From positions 47,812,847 through 47,876,846 of the forward strand of contig OX359248.1 of the NCBI GenBank assembly GCA_947179485.1: 64,000 bases of DNA. Direction: 5' to 3'. Source of the stretch: Allacma fusca (taxonomy: Eukaryota > Arthropoda > Collembola > Symphypleona > Sminthuridae). Shown piece by piece: positions 2,283 to 55,197 of this stretch (within the stretch, counting starts at the first letter, position 1; every line of letters begins with the position of its first letter). The notes beneath the pieces were generated by a model, which was not told the DNA's origin, searched no databases, and saw nothing but the letters and a program-made list of their open reading frames with translations. A program made the translations under genes and the position numbers.

Positions 2283-4389
2283 TCTTTCGTATTACCAACG
2301 AGAGTCATCATCATCATTTTATTTGGAAAATTTCTCTGATTTTATTGTCATTGAAGTTAATATGTGCGTTAGGAGCTTGTCGCAATCAGAGTGTCTCCCT
2401 AATGTCCCATCCAATTCTCTCAGACCACATGCTAATAGTTCTATTACAGATATCACCACTACATACTCCTGCATTGCCAGAGGAACTCTCCTGCTACTCT
2501 ACATATGTATGTATGCTTCCATCATCTAAGTATGACGTATATACCGGCCCTCCCTTTCATCTCCGTAAATTTTTCTCTCACTTTGAGAGTATTACGTTTT
2601 TTTTATATATTATTTCACAGAAGCAGTCTCCATAGTCCGTCGGCAGATTCAAATTAGTTTCATAAATTGGAAAACGACGAGAGAGCTAAGTTAATGTGCT
2701 CTTGTGTGGAGCTTTTTCTCTTGCATATATATAAGTATTATATACTTCTTCGGCCGTATGTTTAATTAAGGGAGAAGTCCTCATAAGTTTTTTTTTTTTG
2801 CATTATAGAGGCATGTACTCCTAGACTTTATTATTATTATTCCTTGCAGGGGTTTTCGTGTGACGTTACTGTGTCACAGAATTTCTAAAGGCAATTTTGT
2901 TTGTAGATGACAGGGCAGTCACATTAATGGGCCTTATTCTGGTTTGGGTTGGAGAGTATATGTACATAATTATGCATGTATGTATGTATGTATGTGCATG
3001 CATACATAAAGAAAGCAACTTGTAATAGCCTTCGGCTCAGTGGTCCTATATTTTAGTATTAGACATTACTTTTCGGGATTATTTGAGCTCCCCGGACTTC
3101 TTGTGAACTCTGGAGGATTTTAGGAGCCTTTTTTATTACTTAACAGTTATTTGTATGCAGTTATAGGCATACAGTTTACACATATGAGTGTATTCACATT
3201 TACAGCTGTTTTGTACGTGGGCTTATATATGGAAATTTGTTATTCATCTTTTGGGATGACGTTTCTTTTAAGTTGAAAGGACTCCGTGCATATATTAAAT
3301 ATATTATTCAGTGTGGGGGCGAGACTAGTATCTTTGTGTTTGATCCTTTGGTGATGCTTACATATGTGTAATTACTATTAATAAAAAGGCCTGTCTATAG
3401 TTCCCATCCCTCGCGTTTCAGTTCCCTTGATTAATAAAATATTATATTTGAATAATTCCTAAGAAGTGAGTCCTCCTGCTCCGTTTTATTTTCGCTTGAG
3501 CTCTTTCCAATCAAAGTTTTACATTTAGTTGCGAGAGATTAATGTGTGCCAATCCTCCATGATTATGCAGGATGACAGTCTCTGGATGTCTGTTTATATG
3601 TATGTAACGCACGTGGAGACTATATGGATAGACATGTCACCTCATGGATTCATTATAGAATTTGAGCTGGAAATAAGTTTGGAAGACACGTATTTGAGCT
3701 GGAAATAACTCCCTCGCCTTGATAAAATGTATAGATAGAATTTGAATATTATTTGTAAGTCTCTTGTGTCCCTTTCGTCATCTTCCTTTTTGCTTGCTTG
3801 ATTTCATACTTGCTATCGCTATAGAGACCTGTGGTGGGTGTTTTGATCTAAAAGTAACTTTTGAATGCAAATGTACTTATACATATGTTTTTGTGTGTTC
3901 ATATTCAAGCGTAGAAAGCTTAGATATCTGTATTTAATTATATACATACATAGACTGCTCTGATGATAACCACGGTGATGTTTGAACGCCCTTGCCTTCC
4001 CCGAAAATAATTTTTTGTATTGTGTAGATTGTCTGTATAGTCCTGGGAAATGTAGATTTTCCTTGACATTTACCAATGTTTCACGTTACGATGCCTTGGG
4101 TTAATTAAGGAAAAGCTCTCACCCAAAAGCCTTAAGCTTCTGTATGTAATTACATAGCTTGTGCACTGGTTAATTAATTAATTGTATTTCTTTGCGTAAA
4201 ATGAAGTGTACTCTTAGAGTTTTGGAACAAAACTTGTTCAATGCTTAGTTACCTTCAGGATTTTGTTCACACATAAGTTTTCCCCTTGTAATCCTGAAAA
4301 TTGCTTGAGGAACGGAGCTCAAGTGTAAGAGGATTACGGGGATTGTTTGGAAGTTCATTAGTAAAGTTGTACATTTTCTATTTTTGCAG
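1..4389. other. 5' flank or upstream intron of the convertase gene; no exon recognised
   Basis: No frame here reads as a convertase signal peptide or propeptide start, although the first recognised exon (4390) begins mid-propeptide. The stretch is therefore probably intron, with the 5' exon or exons upstream of the window, or a short exon I failed to see. Visible content is a (GT)n run at 1569-1618, a CTA triplet run near 1870-1890, a (TC)n run at 2255-2281 and TATG repeats near 2965-2995. Short ORFs in this stretch show no recognisable domain. Confidence 0.6.
1569..1618. repeat. (GT)n microsatellite
   Basis: About 50 bp of GT repeats with one TTT interruption near 1608. It accounts for the poly-Cys/Val reading frame there. 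Confidence 0.9.
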
Positions 4390-27000: not shown

Positions 27001-30000
27001 AGCCAGTCAGGGATCAATCAAAAGGAAGAAAGTAGTAGCGCTATTGTGTTGAGAGGATATGGGATGATGAGTCAAGCTAAATCCGTCTTCCGGAATTCTT
27101 TTGATGCCGTCGACTCTTATTATGGGTCCATGTACTTACTACCATTGCTGCATGACTATATATTTATGAGAATGATTGGGGATTGGGGCAGGGAATTTGT
27201 CTTCGAATGCTTATACAGTGGTCTACTTTCCCTCATTATTGTCACGTCTTCCATCGTGTTAACATTATGTCAGGAGAGTTCTTGATGTTGGGTACTGGTC
27301 CTCCTCCCTCCCATTCATTCTGAACCGTCAGACTCTCTGGTTGAACAGACCCATGGAACAGTACATGCGAGTGTATTATATGCTATTGTGAAAAATGAAT
27401 GGGACAGTTTGTGGAAAAATTCACTACCACAGGAGATTCCGTAGAAAGTGCTGGGCTTTGTTGATGGAATTGATAGAGCAAGTTTTGTGAGTGGTTCTCA
27501 TCTTTTTTATAGGGTCGGAGAGGCTTGGGCTCAATCTTCATCTGGGCATCTGGGAATGGCGGACGTCACACGGACTCTTGCAACTGTGATGGGTACACCA
27601 ACTCGATATTTACCCTGTCCATCTCATCCGCAACTCAGGGCGGCTACAAGCCCTGGTACTTGGAAGAGTGTGCATCCACTCTGGCCACCACTTACTCCAG
27701 TGGGACTCCAACCCTGGACAAAAGCGTCGCCACCGTTGATATGGATGGACGACTCCGACCAGATCATATCTGCACTGTGGAACACACTGGCACCAGTGCT
27801 AGTGCTCCCTTGGCCGCTGGGATTGCTGCATTGGCCTTGGAAGCCAATCGGAACCTGAGCTGGAGGGATTTACAACATTTGGTTGTCATGACAAGTCGCT
27901 CCCATCCTCTGGAGAAGGAAGAGGGCTGGTACGTCAATGGCGTGAATAGAAAATGTAAGTTGGTAACCGTTTCCATTGTTCTTGTCCCCCCTCCCCAATA
28001 TCGAACAACGTTTCGTCATCCGAGCTGCGTGCAAGACAAGTACTAATCCAAAGACTCGAACTTCAACCTGAGTGACAATAGTCACAATTATTTATTTAGA
28101 ACCAAAGCTTGAGCTCTCAATTATAATAAATAACTGAGCTAGAGTTTTAGTTAAAGCAATAATTAATGGAAGGGAGTAACTTGAACTAAGCTTTAAATTG
28201 AATTTGTATGAACATATATGTATACATGTATTAGAACCAAGCGGAGCTATTTGAGGAACTAATTTCAAAAATAGGAATCACTTTGAAATGTGCTTGAACT
28301 TTGTTTGACGGGACTTGAACTTAAGCAGAGCTCTGAGTTTTGTTTGTATACCTATATCATTGTATGTTTTCGTACTTATGTGTATCTTTGGAGGCTTGTA
28401 CATACGTGTTTACTTTATTTGATTGGGGAATATTTGTAATACAAAAGGAAAAGTTTTACAAAAGGTAAATAAAAAGTGTAAAACCGGAGCTATGCTGAGT
28501 GAGCATGAAGTCTCTCCAGTAGTTTACTACGGAGAAATGTCGTGCCAGGAATTAAATTTTGTGTATAGAGGGAAAGTTGTTGAGAGGCTGGTTTGCAAGG
28601 TGTTGAATAAGTTTGGAATGAGATAACATTGTGTCCCTATGTGGGCTGATGAGTTCTATTGTACAAAGTTTTATTGCTCTAAGGAAAGTAAATTGCAAGA
28701 CGAGCAATTTTATTTCCTTTATTTATAACGTTATGTGTACGTGTGTGTGTGGGCGTGGGTTTGGTATATTTAACAGCGATGATAACGATTTTTTCTTCAG
28801 TGTTATTATTGTTGTTTACAGTCAGTCACAAGTTCGGTTACGGGTTGATGGATGCCGGTGCCATGGTGGAATTGGCGGAGAACTGGGCTGGTGTGCCTCC
28901 CCAGCACATTTGTAAATCACGGGAAATTCGTGAAGACAGGGAAATCCCAGGGGCTCATCTGGGCAAAGTCAAAGTTTTTATGGATGTGGATGGATGTGCA
29001 GGCACCAATTCCGAGATTCGCTATTTAGAACATGTTCAGTGTAAGATCTCTTTGAGATTCTTCCCACGTGGAAACCTCCGGATTCTCCTGACGTCTCCCA
29101 TGGGAACAACTTCTGTCCTACTGTTTGAAAGACCCAGGGACGTGTCCAGCTCCAACTTCGATGACTGGCCTTTCTTGTCGGTTCACTTTTGGGGTGAGCA
29201 GGCTCACGGAAGGTGGACGCTAGAGATAATCAACTCGGGCAGTCGGCGTATTAATCAGCCAGGTACATACCCGTTGGGAACCTTTGTAGCTTCTGTAAAC
29301 TGTTCCTTGGTTTTATTTTACGCCGTTTCAGCAAAACTCAACTTTTTGTCTGGTTTAGTCTTAGTACAGGCTACATGGAGAACATCCATATAGGCACAAT
29401 TGACAATTGTTAGTACAGTATAACAGGGAAACTTTCTACTAAAATGTTTGTGAATTATTCAGGTGAGAACATTATTTGCTCCGGAAACATTCTTGACACA
29501 TTTCTTTCTATACCCATACCCGGATACAATGGTAGATAAAACGTCGCAATGACTGAACTAACTTGCTTTGCACATTTAGAACGACGTTACAAGAGTTCAG
29601 ACTCTCTTTTGTCACTTTGAATTAGAAACATAAGCTAGATTCACGTAGTAATAGTTTGACTTAACTTGACTCTTGTTCCCGTCAACTTTTAACTTTTGTA
29701 AGAGGAGAAGCTCTCCCTCGGGGGGACTGTTACTATATAGTAGGAGCTATCCTCTTCTCTTTAAATTCAGGGTAGAATTTCTCTTGTAATATTATTCATG
29801 GTAGCATGTGTTGACACTGTGCTGGTACATGTTCGGAGTGGTAATGAGTGTTTATGGAACGGAACGAGATGGTACATGAAGTACTTTATATAAATGTAAG
29901 GAATTATAATTATAAAACGAATATTCAGCAATAATAATTTTCTGTATATTGACTTCAGTCGATTATATGCTCCTTTATGTATGTATCATCCACGTTAGTA

Positions 30001-33000
30001 TTTAAAAGTTGGGTAGGCTGTAATGCCTGAATGTTAAAATATAATAGATTTTGATGTTTTTTTTAATTGTTTGTTGCTAGTTTTTAGTGTTGTAGTATTT
30101 TTCAGTATGGTTAAAATTTTGTAATGTGTGAAGTAAGTATAATATTTTCATGAATTCTTTAATTTTTATACAGGAATACTGAAGAAATGGCAGTTGATTT
30201 TGTACGGGACAGATGTGAATCCTGTTAGACTTAGATCTCGCTCGTTGAGTGCTTCACCCACACAGCAGCAACAACAGCAACAGCAGCAACCTCAAAACTA
30301 TGGTGGTTCAGGAAGTCAGTTACAGTCGCAGTACCGGCCAGTACCCCTCCCAACATCCCAGCAACAAGGTTCCTTAATCCCTCGATTCATTCCTCAAGAT
30401 TATTTAATTCCTGGAGCTTCGGAGACTATTCCTCAAGTACAAAAGCCACATATGGTGCGTTCACAGTGTACGAACGATAACTGGATCCCTGATCTCAGCA
30501 TCTGCGTCAATGACTGTCCAGATGGATATCACAGAGGTAAAGACTTTGATGATGTATCCAACGCGTCTGTAATGACTATACCTTGTGTACTATTATTATA
30601 GCTTATAACTGCATGCATAATTACTTATTGTAAGCTGAAACTGAAGACATGGTTCACAGTTCCGCGGGGTTGATTGTATGCAAATGAATTCATACGCTTT
30701 TATATGTGGGAAGTGGAAGTTAGAGAAGTTGAAGTTGGAGAAGTTGTGGTGGGGTCGTAAATGTGACAATCTCATTAAAGACTTTGGAGATGGTTTGTGT
30801 GGTTCGTTGTCATGTCAAAACCTGCTGGCAGTGTGGGGTTAATTACGATGTATTAATGGTTCTACAGATGCGGAGAGGAAAGAGTGCCTTTCCTGCCCTC
30901 AGAGGTGTAAATCCTGCTACAATGGGACGTCATGCACTGCTTGCGAGCACAACCTAGTTCTTTTTGAGACTTCCTGTGTTCCTGTCTGTCCGGATGGTTA
31001 CTATGAGGCGGACTCCTCCTGTGAATTATGCGACTTGTCAACCTGCTCAACTTGTGCTGGGCCTTTGGGGAGTGAGTGTGTTCGGTGCAAGGAAAATCTA
31101 TTCCTCCATGAAAATAAATGTTTACCCCACTGCCCTGGCGGTTTCCGACCCACCGATTTCAACGAATGTACTAGCTGTCCAATGGGTTGCCATTCCTGCG
31201 ACGAGAGTAAGTGTCTTTACTGCCGGATAGGGTTCGAAATGCGTGAAGATGGTTCGTCATGCTATGAAAAAAATCCGGTAAGACATGTTTCAGACTTCGC
31301 GACAATTACAAATCTGAGTAATCGTGCTTAACTTTGTGCTTTATGTATAGAAATTATTTGCCCTTTTGTTTCTGTGTCTCGCAGAAGAGATATTTGTATT
31401 TTCTTTTAGTTAGTGTTACGATTTAAATCTTCTGTTTTTATTTGACATTACAATTATTTTTAATGCATAGTATACTACCTGCTGCTACATTTGTAGTTGC
31501 TTTTTAATTCATGGTTACATTTGTTGCAAATGTAGCATTTATTTTCACAGTTTTATTTAGTGTTACTGTAATCGTGTCGCATTTTCTTTTACCGCTTTTG
31601 TAAGTTTTGTGGGAATGACGCTAACTGAAATGGCGGGGTATATATCTAATGAAATGTGTTTGTTTTTTTTATTACAACAGCCATGCCCGGCAAAATTGTA
31701 CCTGAACCCAGAGACGAACGTTTGTTCGGGATGTGGTAATCCCGAGTGCTTGCACTGCTCAGCTGAAGATCAGTGTATGTATTGTCAGGAAGGGTACCTT
31801 TTGTACCAAGGACAATGTATTCAACAGTGTTGGGACGGTCTGTTCCCTTCCTTAAAGAGTAATGAGTGCATGAAGTGTCCCAAGTTATGCACCAAGTGCT
31901 TGTCTCCTGAACAATGTACGAAATGTCGGGGGGATGGAATGCTGCAAGAAGGAAAGTGTCTCCCGCATTGCTCTGACGGGTAAGCCCACGCAACCGGAAT
32001 ACTAAATAATGTCCATCGTCTTAAGTTTTGTTTTTACTGTTTCCGTACTTTAAGCACTCTTTTTACTTTGCTCCAAAACCAGTACGTATCATGTGTATCT
32101 AGTAGATATGTGAATGTGGGAAGAAACCCAAGTAGTCACAAGATACTGAAACAATGCTGCATTACAGAATACCTATATACTGATACAAGTATTGTAATAC
32201 GTATATTTTTCCTCTCAGTTCGTAATAGTATACAAGTTTCTTGTGTCTCGAGTCTACAGAGTCTCTGAAATATATTTTTGGTATCATTGGTCGGTGATCG
32301 TAATGTTATGAAATTTATTTGGGACGAAAAAGGAGTTATTGCAAGAGCAAATGGTACTGACAAAGTTATCCGACTGTCGTATGATCATGATCCTTGGGAT
32401 TTGTACAAGTTGCTCAACCGTATACGTATCTATTTCAAGCTAGTCACTACAAATGGAAAAGCGTCTCTACAGCATGATTTATGTGGACATGCAAATTGGA
32501 GCTTGTTCTCTTCTCTAGTCGTTTGTTACGGTTTGGGCTAATATTTGAGTTTTTGCTACTTCATCAGCCCTAGTACTATAGCTACTGTTAACAGGGTGGA
32601 ATTGATACGGAACTCTTGTCATCTATGTAGTCATTAAGTATATTCTAAAGAAGATTTTTAATATATTCCCTCCTTATAGTATATTCCTTGCCTCGCCGAT
32701 ATTTTTAAGGGAAAAAAGTTATGCCGGCAGGCACAGGGAGAAGGCTGATGAATAATTTATGAATGTCTCATTTTTAAATATCCACACATATGGAATTTTC
32801 TTTTTAACTTTTTTCATTTTAACTTTTTAATGCCGTAATGTACCAAGTTTTGGATTGTGAGACGCTGAAAGGCTTTAATGTAAAAGTTTGATGTTATATA
32901 GGTACATGTATCTGCGACTTGGGATGATGGCATGCTTTTATTTAGAAGAGCTACATAAAATGAGTTAAAATGAGCAACACATTTTCTATTTGCCAGATTC

Positions 33001-34433
33001 TTCAACGACTTGGGCACTTGTTCGAGATGTTCCCCAGACTGTAAAACTTGCATTGGACCCACTTCCTCAGATTGTGTAGCTTGTAGTCCAGGCTCAGTGC
33101 TCACGAAGGGAGGGAGCTGCGTTCAAACTAATGCCTTGACGCAGGATTATAGTAACAGCAGTAGGCAGATCATTACTAGATGTCCGGATGGGTTCTGGCT
33201 TAATAGTGTCAATGGCTGTCAACCATGTCATACGACATGTTCAAAATGTAACGGTAAGTATGGAGGAAGATGATGTGATCCATAGGGTGTTCTATGCTTT
33301 TCCTTAAAGAACCTAAAATTTGGCATAATTGGGAAAGTTTTGATCATAAGTTGAGGAATTAAATTTTGATTGAAGGTTTGGCTTAAATTTTTTATGTACT
33401 TACATTTAATGTGGTTTCCAGGCGGGTTGCCTTATAACTGTCGAAGTTGTGTCGCTCCACTTCGATTAGATCGAGGAAGTAGTCGTTGTATTCAGTGCTG
33501 CGAGAGTACGGAAGACTTGGACTGCTGTCACTGTGATGCTAAAAGGCATACGCAAAGTATTGCCACTCCTTTGACTGCGAACTATAATGGTAATTTTGAA
33601 TTACTCTCTGGCACGTGTTATTAATGACTTTATAGTATAATTCACGGTAATGAATTTGAGTGAATATGAAGTACCTAAACTACGTAAATGTGATGGGAAA
33701 ATTAATTAGAATTCTTTTGAGCTCATTTTGAGTTGGCTTTTTGGATTGAATGTTGTTCACAGAAGGTATTTGGATGATGTAATTAAATGAAAGGAAATTG
33801 AAACCAGAGAAAAGTAGAGGAAGGATGATGAGATGAGCGTTGTGTGCCCTCACACGTATCGGGTGTGTGGGTGGAGGAAGGTGATGATTGACGGAGTAGG
33901 AGGAAATTCTTGAACTGAAGCATCTCGGCATTTTGATAGGAAAGTGCTTTTTGACACGGTGTCTTTGTGTTTGTTTTGTAGGCGAGTGTCACTTTGTGTC
34001 ACGTCGTGTCTCCGAGTCCGACGAGCGTCAGCTAAGTTCGGGGAAATGGAGCGACTCCATGGTTCTTAGTTTCTTCTGGTTGTCAGTCTTCTGCATGGTT
34101 TCTGTACTCATTATTTTCTCGGTACAGAGAAGACGCCGACGGTATCACATCTCTCCAGCTACCGGCTCAGATTTTCATGCCTTTGAAAATATAAAGACGG
34201 GAGCAAGTCACTTTAAATCTACTTCAAAGTACGTCCCAGTGAGTCTACGGGAAGATGCACAATACTGTGATGACAATTTCGATAATTGTAGGCCACAATT
34301 CAGTGATAGCCATCGTCTCATCCCGCATGGTCAGCATGACGGGGGTGTCCATTACAGAGACATGGACTTAGACTACGATGACGATGACCATTCGGAAAGT
34401 GCGGAAGGAGTCCCACTCGTTTTAAAGACTTAA
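4390..34433 (+). CDS. Fur2: Furin-like proprotein convertase, type I membrane form (Fur2/PC5-like), 5' partial
   Basis: This encodes a calcium-dependent subtilisin-like endoprotease that cleaves secretory precursors after dibasic sites in the trans-Golgi and endosomal route. Exons are 4390-4494, 8842-9012, 12497-12631, 24076-24408, 27513-27954, 28822-29262, 30174-30536, 30868-31277, 31681-31979, 32997-33253, 33422-33589 and 33982-34433. All introns are GT-AG and phases match at every junction. The total is 3,576 nt, or 1,191 codons plus TAA. Domain order, numbered from the first visible residue, is: end of propeptide with RVKR at 47-50, catalytic domain (Asp123, His162, Asn263, Ser343), P domain, poly-Gln/Pro linker, cysteine-rich furin-like repeats, transmembrane helix (about 1068-1089) and a cytoplasmic tail of about 100 residues. 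The membrane-anchored repeat-rich layout matches Drosophila Fur2 and vertebrate PC5B better than furin itself. The signal peptide is not in view. Confidence 0.93.
4495..8841. other. Convertase intron 1
   Basis: This intron is 4.3 kb and AT-rich, with a (CT)n run at 6119-6137, an (AT)n run near 7575-7590 and a (GT)n run at 8681-8715. I saw no exon, RNA gene or bounded transposon in it. Confidence 0.7.
9013..12496. other. Convertase intron 2
   Basis: This intron is 3.5 kb, with a short GA run near 9190-9210 and T/C-rich sequence around 10,980-11,400. No coding exon or bounded mobile element was recognised. Confidence 0.7.
12497..27954 (+). CDS. Fur2: Convertase exons 3-5: subtilisin-like catalytic domain
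   Basis: Exon 12497-12631 carries the catalytic Asp in ILDDG (codon 12587-12589). Exon 24076-24408 carries the catalytic His in KHGTRCAGE (24148-24150) and the [17 protein letters not shown] block. Exon 27513-27954 carries the oxyanion Asn in WASGNGG (27555-27557) and the nucleophile Ser in HTGTSASAP (27795-27797). Asp-His spacing is 39 residues and His-Asn is 101, both close to human furin (41 and 101). Asn-Ser is 80 against 73 in furin, an expansion of about seven residues just before HTGTSA. All catalytic residues are present, so the enzyme should be active. Confidence 0.95.
14249..14285. repeat. (CT)n microsatellite
   Basis: A nearly pure CT run with one TTCT interruption. It creates spurious Arg/Glu-rich reading frames on the minus strand. 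Confidence 0.9.
15019..15046. repeat. (GA)n microsatellite
   Basis: A pure AG run within intron 3. Like the other dinucleotide runs it produces a spurious Ser/Leu frame on the opposite strand. Confidence 0.9.
24569..25394. mobile_element. Tc1/mariner-superfamily (pogo-like) MITE in intron 4
   Basis: Inverted ends begin CAGTAAAACCTGTATATAG and continue TG on both sides, giving 21 matching bases. Each end is flanked by TA (24567-24568 and 25395-25396), the TSD of the Tc1/mariner superfamily. Subterminal copies of CAGTGGTC/GACCACTG recur inside the left 200 bp and right 100 bp. The 826-bp body has no transposase-like frame, so it is a non-autonomous copy. Subfamily assignment to pogo/Tigger rests only on the terminal style. 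Confidence 0.8.
25397..27512. other. Rest of convertase intron 4
   Basis: This stretch is AT-rich with no recognised gene. A 79-codon open frame at 27046-27285 has no recognisable motif and is not supported as coding. Confidence 0.6.
28822..30536 (+). CDS. Fur2: Convertase exons 6-7: P domain and glutamine-rich linker
   Basis: Exon 28822-29262 starts mid-codon (phase 1, reading [13 protein letters not shown]) and contains the P-domain core [21 protein letters not shown] and [14 protein letters not shown]. Exon 30174-30536 closes the P domain with [11 protein letters not shown], then encodes a run of nine glutamines (QQQQQQQQQ) in a Q/P/S-rich linker of about 70 residues. It ends in the first Cys-rich motif, [12 protein letters not shown]. 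The RGD commonly found in the furin-family P domain is RGN here ([11 protein letters not shown]). Confidence 0.9.
30868..33589 (+). CDS. Fur2: Convertase exons 8-11: cysteine-rich furin-like repeats
   Basis: Four exons (30868-31277, 31681-31979, 32997-33253, 33422-33589) encode tandem cysteine-rich modules of the CxxC...C...CxxC type. Examples are [54 protein letters not shown] and [11 protein letters not shown]. In PC5/PC6-type convertases this region holds the enzyme at the cell surface or matrix. Internal phases are 0, 2, 1 and 1 and all are satisfied. The last module ends [18 protein letters not shown] shortly before the transmembrane exon. Confidence 0.9.
33982..34433 (+). CDS. Fur2: Convertase last exon: transmembrane helix and acidic cytoplasmic tail
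   Basis: A hydrophobic span starting [16 protein letters not shown] is followed by a stop-transfer cluster QRRRRR. The tail contains two YxxPhi-type motifs (YVPV, YRDM) and an acidic serine-bearing stretch, [15 protein letters not shown]. This resembles the casein-kinase-II acidic cluster that returns furin to the trans-Golgi. The assignment of sorting function is by analogy. The stop codon TAA is at 34431-34433. Confidence 0.88.
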
Positions 34434-45300: not shown

Positions 45301-45308
45301 TTGAATAC

Positions 45309-45590
45309 GGCTGAAGTAAGGCAGTGGCCGCTCATTGGAGTATGCATGCTGAGTATGTAAGTGAGTATGCATACTCATTATTACAGCCGTACATATGCCT
45401 GCATACTCAGGAAAAACCAGGGTTGAACATCCCTACACTGTAAATCTCACGAGTATGCATACTCACATCGCATACCTACATAGCATACTCACATAGGATA
45501 CTCAACATGCATGCTCACGAGTATGCATACTCACATCGCATACTCAGCATGCATACCAACATCGATGCACATGCATACTCACATCGATGC
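45309..45590 (+). repeat. Left inverted repeat of the Merlin-type element
   Basis: It begins GGCTGAAGTAAGGCAG and is followed by arrays of the 14-bp palindrome GAGTATGCATACTC and variants (CACATCGCATAC, CAACATGCATGC). Relative to the right copy it has about six extra bases (TGGCCG region) near position 45325. The inner limit is approximate because the repeat grades into divergent palindrome copies. Confidence 0.85.
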
Positions 45591-45825
45591 ACACACTTGC
45601 ATACTCACATCGATGCGCTCTCGCACGCAGACTCATAGAAAATCGTGGAAGCTATATTTTTAGTCATACATCCGTTGGCAGTTAACAATTCAGTCTTTAC
45701 TGACGTGCCGGTGTGTAAGGTGGTGTGATTATTGTTTACGAGTCCAAAGAATATATCGAAGAAAACGTAAGTCTGTTGTCAGTTCCAGCATAAAGTCAAT
45801 TGTCGAAGAAAAAGTGTGTTGTCAG

Positions 45826-46161
45826 CAGGGACGGGAAGGGGCTTGAATACGAATACTTTTTAAAACCTTGAGATACAAAGGAAATACTTGACAAATGGCT
45901 CTGTATGGTCGAAACAAATTTTCAATTTTTGTTATTTTTTTCGGATACTAATTCCGATTCCGATTCCAATACTTTTCTTTAAGCCCATTTTTTAGGTATT
46001 GTAACTATCCAATTTCAAAAATTCTTTTTAAATTTCAATTCTACTATCGTTGATCTAGTTGTCTATACTTACAACTTATCAATGCAACTGTTCATTTGCA
46101 TACAATCGAGGTAAAAAGTTTTTGGGGCACTGTGAAATTCGGATTCCGATTCCCGTCCCTG
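45826..46161. mobile_element. hAT-like MITE nested in the Merlin-type element
   Basis: The ends are CAGGGACGGGAA at the left and TTCCCGTCCCTG at the right, a typical hAT terminus. Flanks are GTTGTCAG (45818-45825) and GTTGTCAT (46162-46169), an 8-bp duplication with one mismatch. The 336-bp body is non-coding and rich in CGATTCCGATTCC. The insertion interrupts the degenerate GTTGTCAG-containing repeat that continues to its right, so it is younger than its host. Confidence 0.75.
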
Positions 46162-46251
46162 GTTGTCATGTCGTAGTGTCGAGTCAATTGTCGAAGAAAA
46201 GTCTGTTGTCAGGTCCAGCGTCAAGTCAATTGTCGAAGAAAACGTAAGTTT

Positions 46252-46478
46252 GTTGTCAGGTCGTAGTGTTGAGTCCATTGTTGAGTCAAGTGTGAAGTCA
46301 GGTCCAGCGTCAAGTCCATTGTCGAAGAAAACGTAAGTCTGTTGTCAGGTCGTAGTGTTGAGTCAATTGTCGAGTCAAGTGTGAAGTCAGGTCCAGCGTC
46401 AAGTCCATTGTCAAAGAAAACGTAAGTCTGTTGTCAGGTCGTAGTGTTGAGTCAATTGTCGAGTCAAGTGTGAAATCG
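46252..46478. repeat. 89-bp tandem repeat in the Merlin-type element
   Basis: Units start GTTGTCAGGTCGTAGTGTTG at 46252, 46341 and 46430. The third unit is cut short at about 46478. Degenerate pieces of the same unit (TCAATTGTCGAAGAAAA) precede it from about 45,770, on both sides of the nested MITE. The array sits just upstream of the transposase remnant. Confidence 0.85.
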
Positions 46479-46523
46479 AATAATTTTTTAACGAATTACT
46501 AATTCAATCTTACGTAAATAATC

Positions 46524-46964
46524 ATGAATCTGATACTTACTCCACTTCAAGTTCAGGAATGTCTAGCTAAGGAAGGGTTTAGCGTAACGTCTTGGGCCCG
46601 ACTAGTGCGAAACGATGCAACAGCCTTCGCTTTTGAAGTCCATACAGGATTAATTCCACTGGAGCCTCCCATTTGCGATACGTGTCACCTACCTATGAGG
46701 CTCACTACCCGGAGGGCTCGCGTGAATTCTGTGAGTTTGGGGAAGCAGTGAGTGTGCCCTAAGGTTAACGGGCAAAATAGGTGCCGCAAGGAGATTAGCG
46801 TGACGGTGGGTACGTGGGTAGAGGGGGCACAGGTTGGGCTATTGAAGGCCTTTGAAATAACCATTCACTGGTTTTTCCAAACGCCTGTGACAAGTGTGGC
46901 GGGTCAAGTCGCCGTTTCTGAGGCGGCAATAGATTATATTATTGGGTGGGAACCGCTTTGGTAG
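46524..46964 (+). pseudogene. Merlin (ISXO2/IS1595-like) transposase remnant, N-terminal
   Basis: One frame reads through a UGA at 46749-46751. Upstream is a first zinc-ribbon half, CDTCHLPMRL. Downstream are RCRKEISVTVGTWVEGAQVG and FQTPVTSVAGQVAVSEAAID, matching the zinc ribbon and helix-turn-helix part of Merlin/IS1016-type transposases (CRKEISVRKGSWFEG-like). The UGA occupies the place where the family usually has Trp in a WxC motif. The frame loses similarity after DYIIGW and stops at 46962-46964. The catalytic DDE domain is missing. Confidence 0.75.
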
Positions 46965-48502
46965 ACGGTAAATTAAATACGAATGAAGTACTTAATAATA
47001 ATTGCTTTTGCTCATTTGCGTATCACCTAGCACTGACTGAAACCGTGATCAGTTTTGGAACACCTGGAGCATCCATGGAATCGATGGAATTACAATAGTT
47101 TTTTGTTACTGAGAATGCATTAACATTCTGGCTAAACGCCATACATGTCCAGTGTATCTGTACATATATAATTTCACTGTGCACACATTTATATACCGAT
47201 TTGTACAGTACCTTTCAAATCGCTCAGACTTGCTGTATTAGTTAGTTTTTTAAAGATTAAAAAAGTGCATTTCACAATATGTGAAACGAAAGACATTTTT
47301 ACACAGGTGAAAATATTGGAAACAATCTTATCCTTATTGCACAAAACAATTGCAAAATTTACAAATAATGCTAATTCAAGTGCGAAGTACTTAGTTCTAC
47401 CAGACAATTCTTGACACAATAATGAATGCCTAAAGGATATCTAATAAAGCATGTAGTAGTCCAACCGTTATTCACCGTCGTCATCACTCATACGTGTCCA
47501 ATCATAAGGGCCCCAAAATGTTAGAAAAGTCATCACCTTGCTTTCAAATCATCTTGTTTCTGCTTTCTCCACACATGATGGTCTAGTTCTAACATTCCTC
47601 CAATTATTTCTTAGGCAAAGTTCCTCGGGAAATTATGTTCATCTTCAACGACATGAGCAAAATCCACTGCAAAGTATGGCAAACCTTTGAAGACCGCCTT
47701 TGTTACATCTCGTTTTCGCACGTCTACTTGTTTTTTATTGTGACTCGTGGTGCTTCTACTGGGGACATTTTTTTTCCCGCCGACAATTCTGTCCCGTCTC
47801 GAAATCCTCTGGACAAGAAAGTTCGTTCCCATTCAGTACCGACATTACATGGAAAACAACTTTGTCCCGAAACTGTCCCTATTGAGTCCCGAAAACCTCG
47901 GGACGCCCCATCCCAAACAGAAACTCTACTATGAACTAGTGCTCTCAGGTAGGCACTATTACTTACACTTTATTCATAATTTTGCCTCTCTTGATTGCCA
48001 GAACTTACTTTGTACTTACTCACGGGCTTCATGGTAGCTATATTACTAACTACTGTCTCAAAATTTTGAGTCGGAACGTAATACTTAGTCTTTACTTATT
48101 TGTTTGTGTATGTAACCCAAGTAATACTTACTCATTTTGAAACATAAATAATATAGTGCATTTTTAATTCCAGGTTTGAGCAACAATTCTAATCCCGTCA
48201 AATACCTATTACAGTGATTACCATTCTAAACTCGATTAAGTAATTCAATGTTTTAAAACAAATTCCTTCGAAATAAATGTTCTTAGCACAGCTCAACCTA
48301 TAAATACACAAATCCAGATCCATTGTGCTCGATTTTTAGTTCCAGTTAGAGGGGAGAATTCATTCCGAGCTAACGGTCCGAAATCCAGTCATGCTCTGTC
48401 TGTGTATCTAATCTTGATTCTGCAAGTCACAAATAGTTATTTTTATGTTCCAAAGCAATTATTAACATCTGCAATAGTCATTTATAATTCCGGGGAACTT
48501 TT
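46965..48502. other. Non-coding interior of the Merlin-type element
   Basis: In a normal Merlin element the DDE catalytic domain would be expected here. None of the frames I read (for example 47635-48037) resembles one. A C/G-rich patch at 47760-47900 has inverted CGGGAC/GTCCCG words and could be another decayed insertion. Confidence 0.5.
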
Positions 48503-49150
48503 TTAGGAACACCTTACATGCTCTTCTAAATGCATCAGGTTATGCTGATTTTTTATGTGCCTTTTTAAATTGTCTTTGCGGGATGCCCGCACTCCACATA
48601 TGGGACATTTCGGTTTATCCTCCTCGGACTTATGGCCTTCCATATGCTTCGACTTTGAGTCAGTGTTTCTGAATGTCTTACCACACACTTGACACTTCAG
48701 AGACACTTTCACAACCAGTGCCAGCGGGTTCTGAGCGGGCAAATATTCCGGCAGCTGTGGGTTCCCGCCGCGTATATTTTCCGCCACAAGTTGGTTGGGA
48801 GCTACTATGTCCTCCGCCAGAGGTGGGTTGGGGGGTTCAATATGTTCCTCTGGGGGCGGGTTTGCACCTGCCATATCCTCCTCTAGTGGCGGGTAAGGAT
48901 CGGGAACAATTATCCCAGGATTCATCGGCCTAGCCGTTGCAGATTGCCGGGCTGTAACCCGTAGTCCTTCCGGTGGGGTGAAATTAGGTGGTCTCTTGTC
49001 GTAAAACACTACGACAGACCCCACAGGCACAACATTGCCACCACTCATCAAACAAATGGGACAATATTTCACCCCACTTTCTTCCAAATAAGGAAAACAC
49101 TTCGTGTGGACAGCACCTCTCCTACATTCTGACCGATCAAGTCGTACCAA
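48503..49150 (-). CDS. C2H2 zinc-finger protein carried inside the Merlin-type element
   Basis: An uninterrupted 215-codon frame. The N-terminus has a Cys/His cluster (CRRGAVHTKC, then CPIC). The middle has about five tandem 11-residue repeats starting Asn or Tyr (for example NPPPEEHIEPP, NPPLAEDIVAP, NQLVAENIRGG). The C-terminus has two C2H2 fingers, CQVCGKTFRNTDSKSKHMEGH and CPICGVRASRKDNLKRHIKN plus QH. It lies entirely between the inverted repeats, convergent to the transposase remnant, and ends about 155 bp inside the right repeat. Its function is unknown. It may bind the palindrome-rich ends, or be a captured host gene fragment. Upstream exons in the 49,151-49,300 stretch are possible but not seen. 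Confidence 0.65.
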   Translation of the reverse strand: MVRLDRSECRRGAVHTKCFPYLEESGVKYCPICLMSGGNVVPVGSVVVFYDKRPPNFTPPEGLRVTARQSATARPMNPGIIVPDPYPPLEEDMAGANPPPEEHIEPPNPPLAEDIVAPNQLVAENIRGGNPQLPEYLPAQNPLALVVKVSLKCQVCGKTFRNTDSKSKHMEGHKSEEDKPKCPICGVRASRKDNLKRHIKNQHNLMHLEEHVRCS

Positions 49151-49304
49151 CTACCCAAACAAAAAATCGGAACACATTAAACACTTCATCTTGGCACTTG
49201 ACTGCAACACTTGAATGACTAAATACTGAAACTTGAACCATAAGAGACTTGACTGAAACGTATGTGAAAAATTCGATCCTCATCGGATGAGTCACGTTGA
49301 TTGT

Positions 49305-49611
49305 ATGAGTATGCATGTGCATCGATGTGGGTATGCATGCTGAGTATGCGATGTGAGCATGCCTACTTGTGAGCATGCATGTTGAGTATGCTATGTGAGT
49401 ATGCTATGTGAGTATGCTATGTGGGTATGCATGCTGAGTATGCGATTTGAGTATGCATACTCGTGAGATTTACAGTGTAGGGATGTTCAACCCTGGTTTT
49501 TCCTGAGTATGCAGCGTGAGTATGCAGGCATATGTACGGCTGTGATAATGAGTATGCAAACTCACTTACCTACTCAGCATGCATACTCCAATGAGCTGCC
49601 TTACTTCAGCC
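49305..49611 (-). repeat. Right inverted repeat of the Merlin-type element
   Basis: This is the reverse complement of the left repeat, with one extra unit of about 14 bp (GCATACTCACGCT type) and more TATGTGAGTATGC copies. The inner boundary is approximate. Confidence 0.85.
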
Positions 49612-49619
49612 TTGAATAC

Positions 49620-52082: not shown

Positions 52083-52957
52083 TGATTGAAGGGATATATA
52101 ATGAGGTTAATAGATGTGAATTTTAATTCCAAAGCATTAACATAGTCAACAGTGATATGTGTGCGTACCTCCTGCAAGAATTTCGATGTTTTCATTCAAA
52201 GCATTATTAGCTGGAACCACATCAACATTCAACTGTCATACAGAAAATTAACAAATATTTGTGTTAATCCAAGTTTAAAAAATATTTGTTAACAGCACAA
52301 AATACTCAAGAGTTTCTAGTCATGACTGGAAATATTACATATTTCCTCCATAGATATTACATATATACAGGTCATACCTTCTCTACTAAAATCCGCTCCA
52401 CGTCGGTGTGCGCGACCTTCAGTAATGGACCAAATTACGCGGGTTGACCATTCTCATCCGTGTAATGAAATACACCGTTCATTGCAATATAATTACAAGT
52501 GTTTCTCTCTAGATATTGTCTACACACCAACCAATATATGATTTAGAAAACATTAAAAATCTGGAACAACTTCACCAAGCTTATTGAAAGTGTGATGGTA
52601 CCACGCTGAGCATGCAACCAATACTTGTGAAAGTTCCACATAGGTGGCATGACAGGAAGCTCACGTTTACTTGAATATGTTTAACAGTGTATTTTGTACT
52701 TACATAACTTTAATTTAATTTCGGAATTTCACCTTCCTCAAGTCTTCTAAAATTTCTCCACGGACATTAAGACACCGGAAAAGAAAACAACGTATTGTCG
52801 AAAGGGCTGCAGGTAAGGCAAATACAATTAAAATAAGGAATTAATTGTTAGCTGACGCATTTCATATAAGGATGCGAAAATAAAATATAATAAATTTATT
52901 TAACAGATATGCCAGCAGAATTGTTGACTACAGATAATCACATTTTTATCAGAAGAG

Positions 52958-55197
52958 ATGCTAACAATTTATCAGATGACTGTTATGCAGAAGTTGTTGA
53001 ACCTCAAATTGAATTTACCTCAAACGCAACGACTCGATACAAGATTAGTGGAAGCTCTTGAAATTAATTACGAAGCTCAGATCGTTCAAGAAAATCTATC
53101 ATGCACTACAGAAATAACTATCGACAGGAATCTGGAAGAAATAGTAAGTTCTGTTTCTCAAGTCAGGACTGGAGAAAATCGCAATGGTACCGATTTAACA
53201 CCGCTTCATACCGTCAGCCTGAAATTAGCAACTTTAGCAAACGAGCATAAGCTCACAGATGCAACAATCAACGCTATGCTTAAAATAATGTCGGAAGTGA
53301 CCATGTTCTACCCCACAAGTATTCCTAAAAATATACGTGTCGTGGAGGATTCCATCTGTACCGGTGTGTTTGACTGCGGATTGACTTGGAAATGCCGTCT
53401 GTGCCAAAAATATAAACGTTACGACATCTTCGATAAAAATATTTTGCGCAGCTGTTGCGGTAATAAGATGGAACCTGGAACTGACCATTACGTGTACTTT
53501 AACGTTGCTCAAATCCTCGCCAAAAATATATACCCTGTTTGAACATATTCAACTAGATGATTTGTTGACCAGAAAACCGCTTCTCCGCAAGTTACGTCAA
53601 AAAATGAATTTCAATGCAGAAGATGTGTCTCTAACCCTTAACATTGACGGAGTTAACTTGTCTTCAAGCTCAAAAAGCACTTTATATCCCCTGCTTGGAT
53701 TTTTAGATGGGACAACACGTAGTGTAGAAAATGAAAATATTCTAATGTTCGGGTTTTGGCTTGGCCCATCAGGGGGGAAACCGGACGTGGAAATATTACT
53801 TAAACCTGTCATTACGCAAATAAAACATCTCGGTGAGCAAGGCTTCCAATGGACAAAAAATGGCATTTGTCGAACTTCGAGGGTAATAATTTCTGCTTGT
53901 GTATGCGACAGCGTGGCCAGACCAGTATTTCAGGGTCTTATGCAGTGGAATGGGCTTTATGGATGTTCTTATTGTCTTCATAAAGAAAGTGGACATTACT
54001 ATTCCCCACATATTACAAGTGATCTACGAAGTAATGAAGAATACCGAACATTATGTCAAATGATGTCAAGAAATGTTCCAGTGAATACATTTGGAGTACG
54101 TTATGCATCCCCATTTACTGAACTGACATACTTCGACATGATTTTAGGTAACACAATAATACTAGATTTTCCGGTCATGACCTGAAATGTAGTGAAAGTT
54201 AAATAAAATTAATAATAATACTTAAATAAACTGAATTTATTGTAGGTTTTCTTCCTTGTATCATGCATACTGGATATCTTGGTGTATGTCGAACTTTGAC
54301 AGAAAAACTTTTGACGAGCAAGCCAGACAATCATTACTATATATCGCCTAATGAAATCCCGCAAATATACAACTACTTACTCGCAATCAAACCACCCTCA
54401 AGAGTATCAAGAACGCCGAGATCATTAAAATTGTTGGCATGGTACAAAGCACACGAACTATCCATGTGGCTTCTTTATTATTCTCCACCGATACTGTAAT
54501 CAATACTACCTCAAGAATATTTTGAGCATTGGCTGAGTTTAATTCGTGGCCTGAGTTTTTACTAACAAGATATAACAGAGCAAACATACGAGAATCAAGA
54601 TGCGAATTACAAATATTCTATGCAATGACCTTGAGGCTATACGGTCAAACCACTTGCAAATACAATTTTCATCTTACAAGTCATCTGGCTCACATTGCAT
54701 CAAAAATTGGTCCACTACAACACTACTCAATGGCTCCTTTTGAAACATTTAATATGACATTGAGGTCATATATTTCATCGTCTTACGAAATGGGTCAACA
54801 AATTGCGAAACGGTATTTTAGAAATCTACAGTGTAAATTTTTGAATAGTTCATCGCTCATAATGCCCCAAAAAACGGGTCGAACCTTTTTGCATGCTAGG
54901 AGAATTCCCAACGAAAACACATTTTGCTGCCCAAAAGACTCATGCACACTTACATACCTAATAAGAGCAAGAACTTATAAAGGCCCTCCATTGGTGTCAT
55001 TATTTGGCGGAAAAGAAAGCAAACGAAATTCTTGTTGTTACGTACTTAATGATACACGTGTAATTGAAGTCGAATACTTTGTGAGTACTGCCTGCAACGA
55101 TGAAGTGTTTGCAATTGGAACCATAAATACACTAGTTCCTGCATTTAATTTATGGCACTACAAAAAAGTAATCTCTAACTGCAAAGGATATTGTTGA
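52958..55197 (+). pseudogene. Tnp2-like transposase pseudogene
   Basis: The order is a zinc-binding segment (WKCRLCQKY...CCGNKM), then LNIDGVNLSSSSKSTLYPLL, GCSYCLHKESGHYY, FDMILGFLPCIMHTGYLGV, PPSRVSRTPRSLKLLAWYK and HYSMAPFETFNMTLRSYISS. These are the blocks of animal proteins related to Tnp2 of CACTA elements. An intron at 54148-54245 (GT-AG, phase 1) is consistent with a real gene. Three breaks are visible: a one-base frame change at about 53,520-53,540, an in-frame TAA at 54497-54499 and a frame change near 54,550-54,560. The last frame ends at 55197. It is therefore a recently broken copy. Confidence 0.78.

Follow-up and report, generated by a model that had tools for sequence, protein, structure and literature searches.

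What is a C2H2 zinc-finger (ZnF) gene doing inside a DNA transposon of the Merlin type? We addressed this question for a single element in a 64-kb stretch of the Allacma fusca genome (here called the window; contig C12:47812847-47876846 of a source assembly of 392.7 Mb in 91 contigs). A preliminary description of the window had proposed a Merlin-type transposon that encloses an intact zinc-finger gene as a passenger, either kept by selection or recently captured, while its own transposase decayed. We read the element instead as a two-gene Merlin transposon that has decayed in this copy, in which the product of the second gene would bind repeat arrays in the element ends and help the transposase; we give this reading a probability of roughly three in four.

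The element is fully bounded, as the preliminary description held: the 8-bp target site duplication (TSD) TTGAATAC stands on both sides, and the terminal inverted repeats (TIRs) are about 0.3 kb long (Table 1). Its tips read GGCTGAAG, with the 5'-GG of Merlin TIRs. Aligned to each other, the two repeats agree in 256 of 267 ungapped columns; the alignment gaps measure 6, 13, and 26 bp, and the two longer ones equal one and two 13-bp units. All 24 exact copies of GAGTATGC in the window lie inside the two element ends, and a window search with a 14-bp palindrome, allowing up to two mismatches, returned eight matches, seven of them in the ends (shuffle mean, 0.19). Comparison of the left and right 5' leaders gave only 8- to 12-base matches in the portion of the output examined.

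Between these ends, the transposase is indeed reduced to a broken N-terminal piece, and a six-frame scan of the window element detected no DDE_Tnp_IS1595 domain. This domain, which typifies Merlin, is present in sister copies (PF12762, E value 2.5e-6, 28 bits against a cutoff of 27 bits). Relatives in the same genome are referred to below as F1 (the family of the window element), F2, and F3. The stub matches the F3 transposase with an E value of 1e-10 (database size, 1e6) and 54.7 bits, whereas the best of 300 shuffles scored 23.9. Its match to the F2 transposase alone is weak (E value 1e-3, 24.3 bits) and lies within what 200 shuffled sequences gave (up to 26.6). At the amino acid level, the stub is 83% identical over 105 residues to a copy at C9:25.06 Mb (L066) and 53% identical over 117 columns to L070; in a copy at C12:33.3 Mb, itself 53% identical to the stub, the same region continues into a part that matches the F2 transposase at 2e-12. 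Because the stub matches a transposase clade that carries DDE_Tnp_IS1595, membership of the window element in the Merlin superfamily is supported.

From its ends, the element could also be taken for a Muta1-type Mutator-like element (MULE). In the accessible text of PMC5225508, mosquito MULEs combine 8- to 9-bp TSDs and long TIRs with 9- to 15-bp subterminal tandem repeats, and some derivatives carry host fragments. These elements differ, however, in having a MULE transposase with a zinc domain within it, and no zinc-finger accessory gene is mentioned in that text. No MULE domain was found in the six frames of the window element at E values up to 1, and the stub's match to the DDE_Tnp_IS1595 transposase clade rules against a MULE, which we consider extremely improbable.

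Evidence for the two-gene reading comes from the genomic distribution of the ZnF gene. In searches of the source genome (393 Mb) with the F2 proteins, a ZnF locus was found within 12 kb of 15 of 37 transposase loci, where 0.07 would be expected by chance. At all 15 the two genes are convergent, and at 14 they lie no more than 6 kb apart. This layout departs from the usual, though hardly defining, description of Merlin as having a transposase as its only gene. Loci with at least 44% identity to the F2 transposase were paired in 14 of 16 cases and those below that line, which was set after seeing the data, in 1 of 21. These loci were obtained by manual merging of search rows (47 transposase rows into 37 loci; 31 plus 22 ZnF rows into 30 ZnF loci), weak generic C2H2 matches were kept among the 30 ZnF loci, and the ZnF counts are lower bounds, since one of the ZnF searches scored 150 of 425 candidates. 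The window copy lies outside the count because its stub was not matched by the F2 transposase search. The paired loci comprise nine of F2, that of F3 (C8:19.7), C8:70.6 with C8:20.8, two of F1 (C9:25.06 and C12:33.3), and C1:16.9.

Close copies of the window ZnF gene lie at C5:17.48, C9:25.06, C1:33.25, and C12:33.31 Mb. More distant relatives elsewhere in the genome have open 279-codon frames, and DDE_Tnp_IS1595 adjoins several of them. The ZnF proteins of other families are 33 to 46% identical and share the convergent arrangement with transposase, and the homology between F1 and F2 ZnF proteins spans their whole length (E value 5e-11). On this comparison, the ZnF gene is best regarded not as a passenger but as a second gene that belongs to a Merlin lineage.

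Collecting genome copies, a check proposed in the preliminary description, showed that complete-looking copies hold both a DDE_Tnp_IS1595 transposase and a ZnF frame. The three F2 copies L092, L093, and L094 each sit at a different site between exact TSDs, which measure 9, 8, and 8 bp, respectively. The F2 inverted repeats are about 800 bp long and are 98% identical in L092 and L093. L092, the only copy that was domain scanned, encodes DDE_Tnp_IS1595 in a 300-codon frame (2.5e-6), has its transposase N terminus in a separate 62-codon frame from the ATG at 1525, and encodes a second protein of 270 amino acids that combines a RING-like cluster with two C2H2 fingers. Both proteins are conserved, and the ZnF and 300-codon transposase frames are 100% identical at four loci. 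In F2, the ATG of the ZnF gene lies 2 bp, and that of the transposase 85 bp, inside the inner edges of the respective repeats, and the two genes therefore share nearly the same upstream DNA. The F3 copy (C8:19.73 Mb) has tips that read GGTTGGAT, with GG ends; its inner repeats are 99.9% identical over 1,007 bp and its outer repeats 89.7% identical over 330 bp. Its transposase has the N terminus and most of the DDE part in one 286-codon frame, with 74 more codons in a separate piece in the same frame, and its ZnF gene is split into two frames.

Downstream of the transposase, F2 copies also contain a 170-codon ATG frame (L092, 3463-3972, plus strand; L093, 4887-5396, minus strand). This frame has no Pfam match and a near-identical counterpart in L095, and it is a possible third gene.

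In the window copy, the ZnF gene has decayed. The 215-codon zinc-finger frame previously described exists, as a stop-to-stop frame at 49150-48503 on the minus strand that encodes two C2H2 fingers (Pfam, 2.6e-8), with its first ATG at 49048 leaving 181 amino acids. Frames of at least 215 codons arose in 0 of 500 shuffles of the whole element and in 2 of 1,000 shuffles of the frame's own GC-richer region; frame length by itself is modest evidence. The gene is not intact, as had been claimed: the conserved gene begins at ATG 49189 and is broken by one nonsense codon, an in-frame TAG (Table 1). The F2 homologue has a tyrosine in this column and the C5 copy has a methionine. Because homologues carry an ordinary residue there, we prefer to interpret the TAG as a nonsense mutation over a spliced reading.

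Two cysteines of the RING-like cluster are encoded upstream of the TAG; the zf-RING_2 score is 0.085 with these residues and 0.86 without them, both below the cutoff. Between the Cys/His cluster and the fingers, the protein contains 11-residue repeats, with 18 identities at lag 11 versus 5.9 expected (0 of 2,000 shuffles). The difference between synonymous and nonsynonymous proportions (pS-pN) in these repeats is 0.27 (bootstrap, 0.03 to 0.55), but a position-3 permutation gave a P value of 0.09; purifying selection within the repeats is only suggestive. Structure prediction without an alignment returned a mean predicted local distance difference test score of 40 for both the ZnF protein and the transposase stub, and these models were not used.

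We next consider selection, as measured by the ratio of nonsynonymous to synonymous substitution rates (dN/dS; Nei-Gojobori) in pairwise comparisons of copies. For the ZnF gene, dN/dS is 0.31 (0.20 to 0.48) between the window and C5 copies and 0.31 (0.20 to 0.47) between the window and C9 copies. For the transposase stub it is 0.55 and 0.57, with intervals that include 1. The ZnF lineage was thus constrained, and the window copy itself has decayed, with one nonsense codon; selection on the frame, as earlier proposed, is supported for the lineage and not for this copy.

Could the frame nevertheless be a captured host gene, in the manner of Pack-TIR elements? The same element does hold another host fragment, from CWF19L2 (Table 1). 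Human CWF19L2 matches it at 8.9e-17, with six residues absent relative to the human protein. A genome search for its domain (PF04676) returned four matches, the window fragment and three others; the best genome match of the fragment, at C10:30707154 (E value 2.4e-31), is a candidate parent identified by domain search. We regard this fragment as a real host-derived passenger, which gives the window copy the host fragment that marks Pack-TIR elements. Animal Pack-TIRs, in which DNA transposon ends likewise enclose a host gene fragment, are described in the accessible text of PMC8277862, where 323 of 370 are hAT or Tc/mariner and Merlin goes unmentioned. In addition, unequal synonymous divergence of the two genes between the window and C9 copies (see below) shows that parts move between copies. 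However, the ZnF gene is common to sister copies and to other families and is convergent to the transposase at every paired locus. If it was captured, this must have happened before these families diverged, and the ZnF gene would by now be a gene of the lineage. Given this co-location with the transposase across the genome, we reject a passenger ZnF gene, and recent capture in particular, as improbable.

Copies without the ZnF frame, which the preliminary description had said would count against its proposal, do exist: the 10-kb pieces L068, L069, and L071 contain element ends and neither a ZnF nor a transposase-stub match. These copies therefore resemble fragments of ends or short derivatives. 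L069 (C10:62.84 Mb) contains three F1 end copies in direct order, at 3477, 4212, and 6529, each preceded by the same TGAAACGGG, which suggests tandem duplication of the end.

The terminal arrays, which had been put forward as plausible binding sites for the zinc-finger protein, are found in three families. They consist of GAGTATGCAT in F1, GAGGATACAT in F2, and GAGGCCACAT in F3, in units of 13, 26, and 27 bp. Matches to GAG...RCAT in the two ends number 10 and 6 in F1 (at irregular spacing), 10 and 10 in F2, and 6 and 7 in F3, and those in the interiors number one in 3.6 kb of F1 and none in 5.8 kb of F2. A three-way alignment of the array cores has 7 invariant columns at best, a score reached in 0 of 3,000 shuffles of all three, and a two-way array test gave 0.015. 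In a C2H2 pattern scan of 11 loci, the last finger was matched in seven, and at five of these (window, L080, L092, L106, and L082) its contact residues are R-D-N-R. This contact set reads GAG. Among zinc-finger designs tabulated in PMC5260015, the accessible part lists RSDNLVR for GAG-containing targets. The presence of GAG arrays and an R-D-N-R finger in three families strengthens the case for the arrays as predicted binding sites.

We propose the following mechanism for the two-gene Merlin. Gene 1, the DDE_Tnp_IS1595 transposase, is read inward from one end, and gene 2 is read inward from the opposite end and encodes an accessory protein whose RING-like Cys/His cluster is followed by two C2H2 fingers. 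The last finger of this protein would bind the tandem GAG...RCAT sites in the ends, and the bound protein would help the transposase by recruiting the ends or pairing them, much like the Myb-like protein of Harbinger and the TnpA of En/Spm. The window copy cannot move alone and would need both proteins in trans. A more specific proposal, that a Merlin lineage acquired a dedicated RING-like/C2H2 factor that reads the GAG...RCAT arrays (13-, 26-, and 27-bp) and is required together with the transposase for movement, an independent origin of the two-protein design seen in Harbinger, MuDR, and En/Spm, is tentative and in our view falls a little short of an even chance.

Alternatively, gene 2 may not help transposition at all and may counter host silencing or regulate transcription of the element, with the arrays read by the transposase. 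The RING-like cluster, weak as its zf-RING_2 score is, would fit ubiquitin-ligase activity, and the arrays lie upstream of the ZnF gene, as follows from the position of its ATG in F2. Two ZnF-bearing lineages, moreover, showed no GAG...RCAT array in the pieces examined. On the other side, the three families in which an R-D-N-R finger occurs together with GAG arrays point to direct reading of the ends, and regulation and help in transposition are compatible. We consider this main rival reading doubtful, though clearly less improbable than a captured passenger.

Several observations weigh against a two-gene Merlin whose second protein reads the ends. Nine of the 15 paired loci belong to one family, F2, some loci of which may be segmental duplicates, and the pairs appear to represent about five independent lineages; no ZnF locus was found near 22 of the 37 transposase loci. 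The F2 transposase is split (62 and 300 codons) and requires an intron, which we presume, or a defect, and no TSD was found around the F3 copy. Constraint on the ZnF gene is less clear in other comparisons: dN/dS is 0.55 (0.37 to 0.87) between the window and C1:33.2 copies and 0.51 (0.29 to 0.86) between the window and C12:33.3 copies, and for the F2 gene against four relatives it is 0.40, 1.06, 0.43, and 0.80, with every interval including 1, the pattern expected when copies are young or decaying. Between the window and C9 (L066) copies, the synonymous substitution rate reaches 0.54 for the ZnF gene but 0.15 for the stub. The genes of one element therefore need not share a history, and exchange of halves between Merlin copies by recombination is likely.

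The arrays and fingers add further difficulties. The arrays may be read by the transposase itself. Shuffling the F1 half-site alone equaled the three-way alignment score in 200 of 3,000 trials, so the link to F1 is weaker. The last finger is K-A-N-R in L091 and R-D-N-Q in L066, and it was not matched by the C2H2 pattern in L067, L079, L090, and L101. Finally, the pieces of L090 and L082 (one GAG...RCAT site per strand each) and of L091 (none) contain no such array, although the element ends were not located there. An array of GAGAGTCC in L090 and L082 was not counted as terminal, because it and the start of the ZnF gene lie on opposite sides of that gene. At L091 (C1:16.875 Mb), the convergent transposase and ZnF genes are more distantly related; other words, ACCTGTAC and GGGTGCTCAC, are frequent there, and with its K-A-N-R finger this pair offers a natural test of finger-array covariation.

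Two-protein arrangements are known from other transposons. In MuDR, the convergent genes mudrA and mudrB start at two long inverted repeats, and in En/Spm, TnpA binds short repeats in subterminal arrays. The former resembles F2 in layout and in the similar upstream DNA of its genes, and the latter resembles the role proposed here for gene 2; in both, the transposase and the accessory protein are unrelated to those of Merlin. PIF/Harbinger elements, according to the accessible text of PMC9710019, also encode a second, DNA-binding (Myb-like) protein but differ in transposase superfamily and in DNA-binding fold; in the present elements, binding is predicted from the R-D-N-R finger and the GAG arrays.

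Merlin elements, as described in the accessible text of PMC8101967, have 5'-GG ends, 8- to 9-bp TSDs, TIRs of 24 to 462 bp, a DDE_Tnp_IS1595 transposase, and, in some families, internal tandem repeats. The present families share the GG ends, TSD length, long TIRs, and transposase domain with that description and differ in having a separate convergent C2H2 gene and, in F2, repeats of about 800 bp, longer than the range given there. The same text reports a dinoflagellate family with a 1-kb open reading frame that overlaps the transposase and was judged to be due to chance, as well as zinc domains inside the transposase of some copies; the accessible main text mentions no second or accessory Merlin gene. 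Within the searchable open literature, which leaves out Repbase and most subscription papers, we found no description of a two-gene Merlin with a zinc-finger gene. With a convergent second gene kept in several families of one genome, Merlin would join the small set of eukaryotic two-protein transposons. Since each family has its own finger, predicted triplet, and array, these elements would lend themselves to the question of why a second DNA-binding protein is recruited by transposons. Our results also suggest that a second gene can be missed in Merlin surveys based only on the DDE domain.

Searches of viral and prokaryotic collections found the end motif in 18 viral contigs, with GAGTATGCATACTC at 0 of those 18 loci. 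Protein searches of these collections returned no relative, and patterns built on a Merlin motif gave no matches. A tblastn search of plasmids with the stub yielded three matches at E values of 2 to 4; the two examined looked, from their translations, like GlxA-type regulators.

Table 1. Features of the window element (positions in the window) and complete-looking F2 relatives (positions in the genome)
Feature	Position	Strand	Remarks
Window element	45309-49611		4303 bp; both ends 5'-GG; exact 8-bp TSD
Left TSD	45301-45308		TTGAATAC; identical to 49612-49619
Right TSD	49612-49619		TTGAATAC
Left TIR	45309-45581	+	273 bp; starts 5'-GG; holds 13-bp GAGTATGC arrays
Nested MITE, taken to be hAT-like	45826-46161		Ends CAGGGACGGGAA/TTCCCGTCCCTG; flanks GTTGTCAG/GTTGTCAT, 7 of 8 bases agree
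89-bp minisatellite	46162-46474		3.5 copies; adjoins nested MITE
Merlin transposase N-terminal remnant	46524-46964	+	In-frame TGA 46749-46751; DDE part absent
CWF19L2 C-terminal fragment	47548-47745	-	Pseudogene; in-frame TAA; Pfam CwfJ_C_2 4.3e-14
Accessory ZnF gene	48503-49189	-	RING-like Cys/His cluster, 11-amino-acid repeats, two C2H2 fingers; TAG 49153-49151
Right TIR	49306-49611	-	306 bp; holds 13-bp GAGTATGC arrays
Complete-looking F2 copies	L092, C8:2.2 Mb; L093, C8:11.64 Mb; L094, C1:25.47 Mb		Tips GGTTGGAT; GG ends

The preliminary description had overlooked the CWF19L2 fragment, the nested miniature inverted-repeat transposable element (MITE), and the 89-bp minisatellite; our assignment of the MITE as hAT-like relies on an end motif. 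Elsewhere in the window, positions 27513-34433 (plus strand), about 11 kb from the element, hold an animal proprotein convertase gene in the form of exons (Peptidase_S8, P_proprotein, and Furin-like_2); the frame at 33900-34430 has no Pfam match. The remnant of another DNA transposon lies at 52928-55197 (plus strand), with matches to Transposase_21 (0.017) and DUF4218 (9e-4) that are both weak and below the curated cutoffs.

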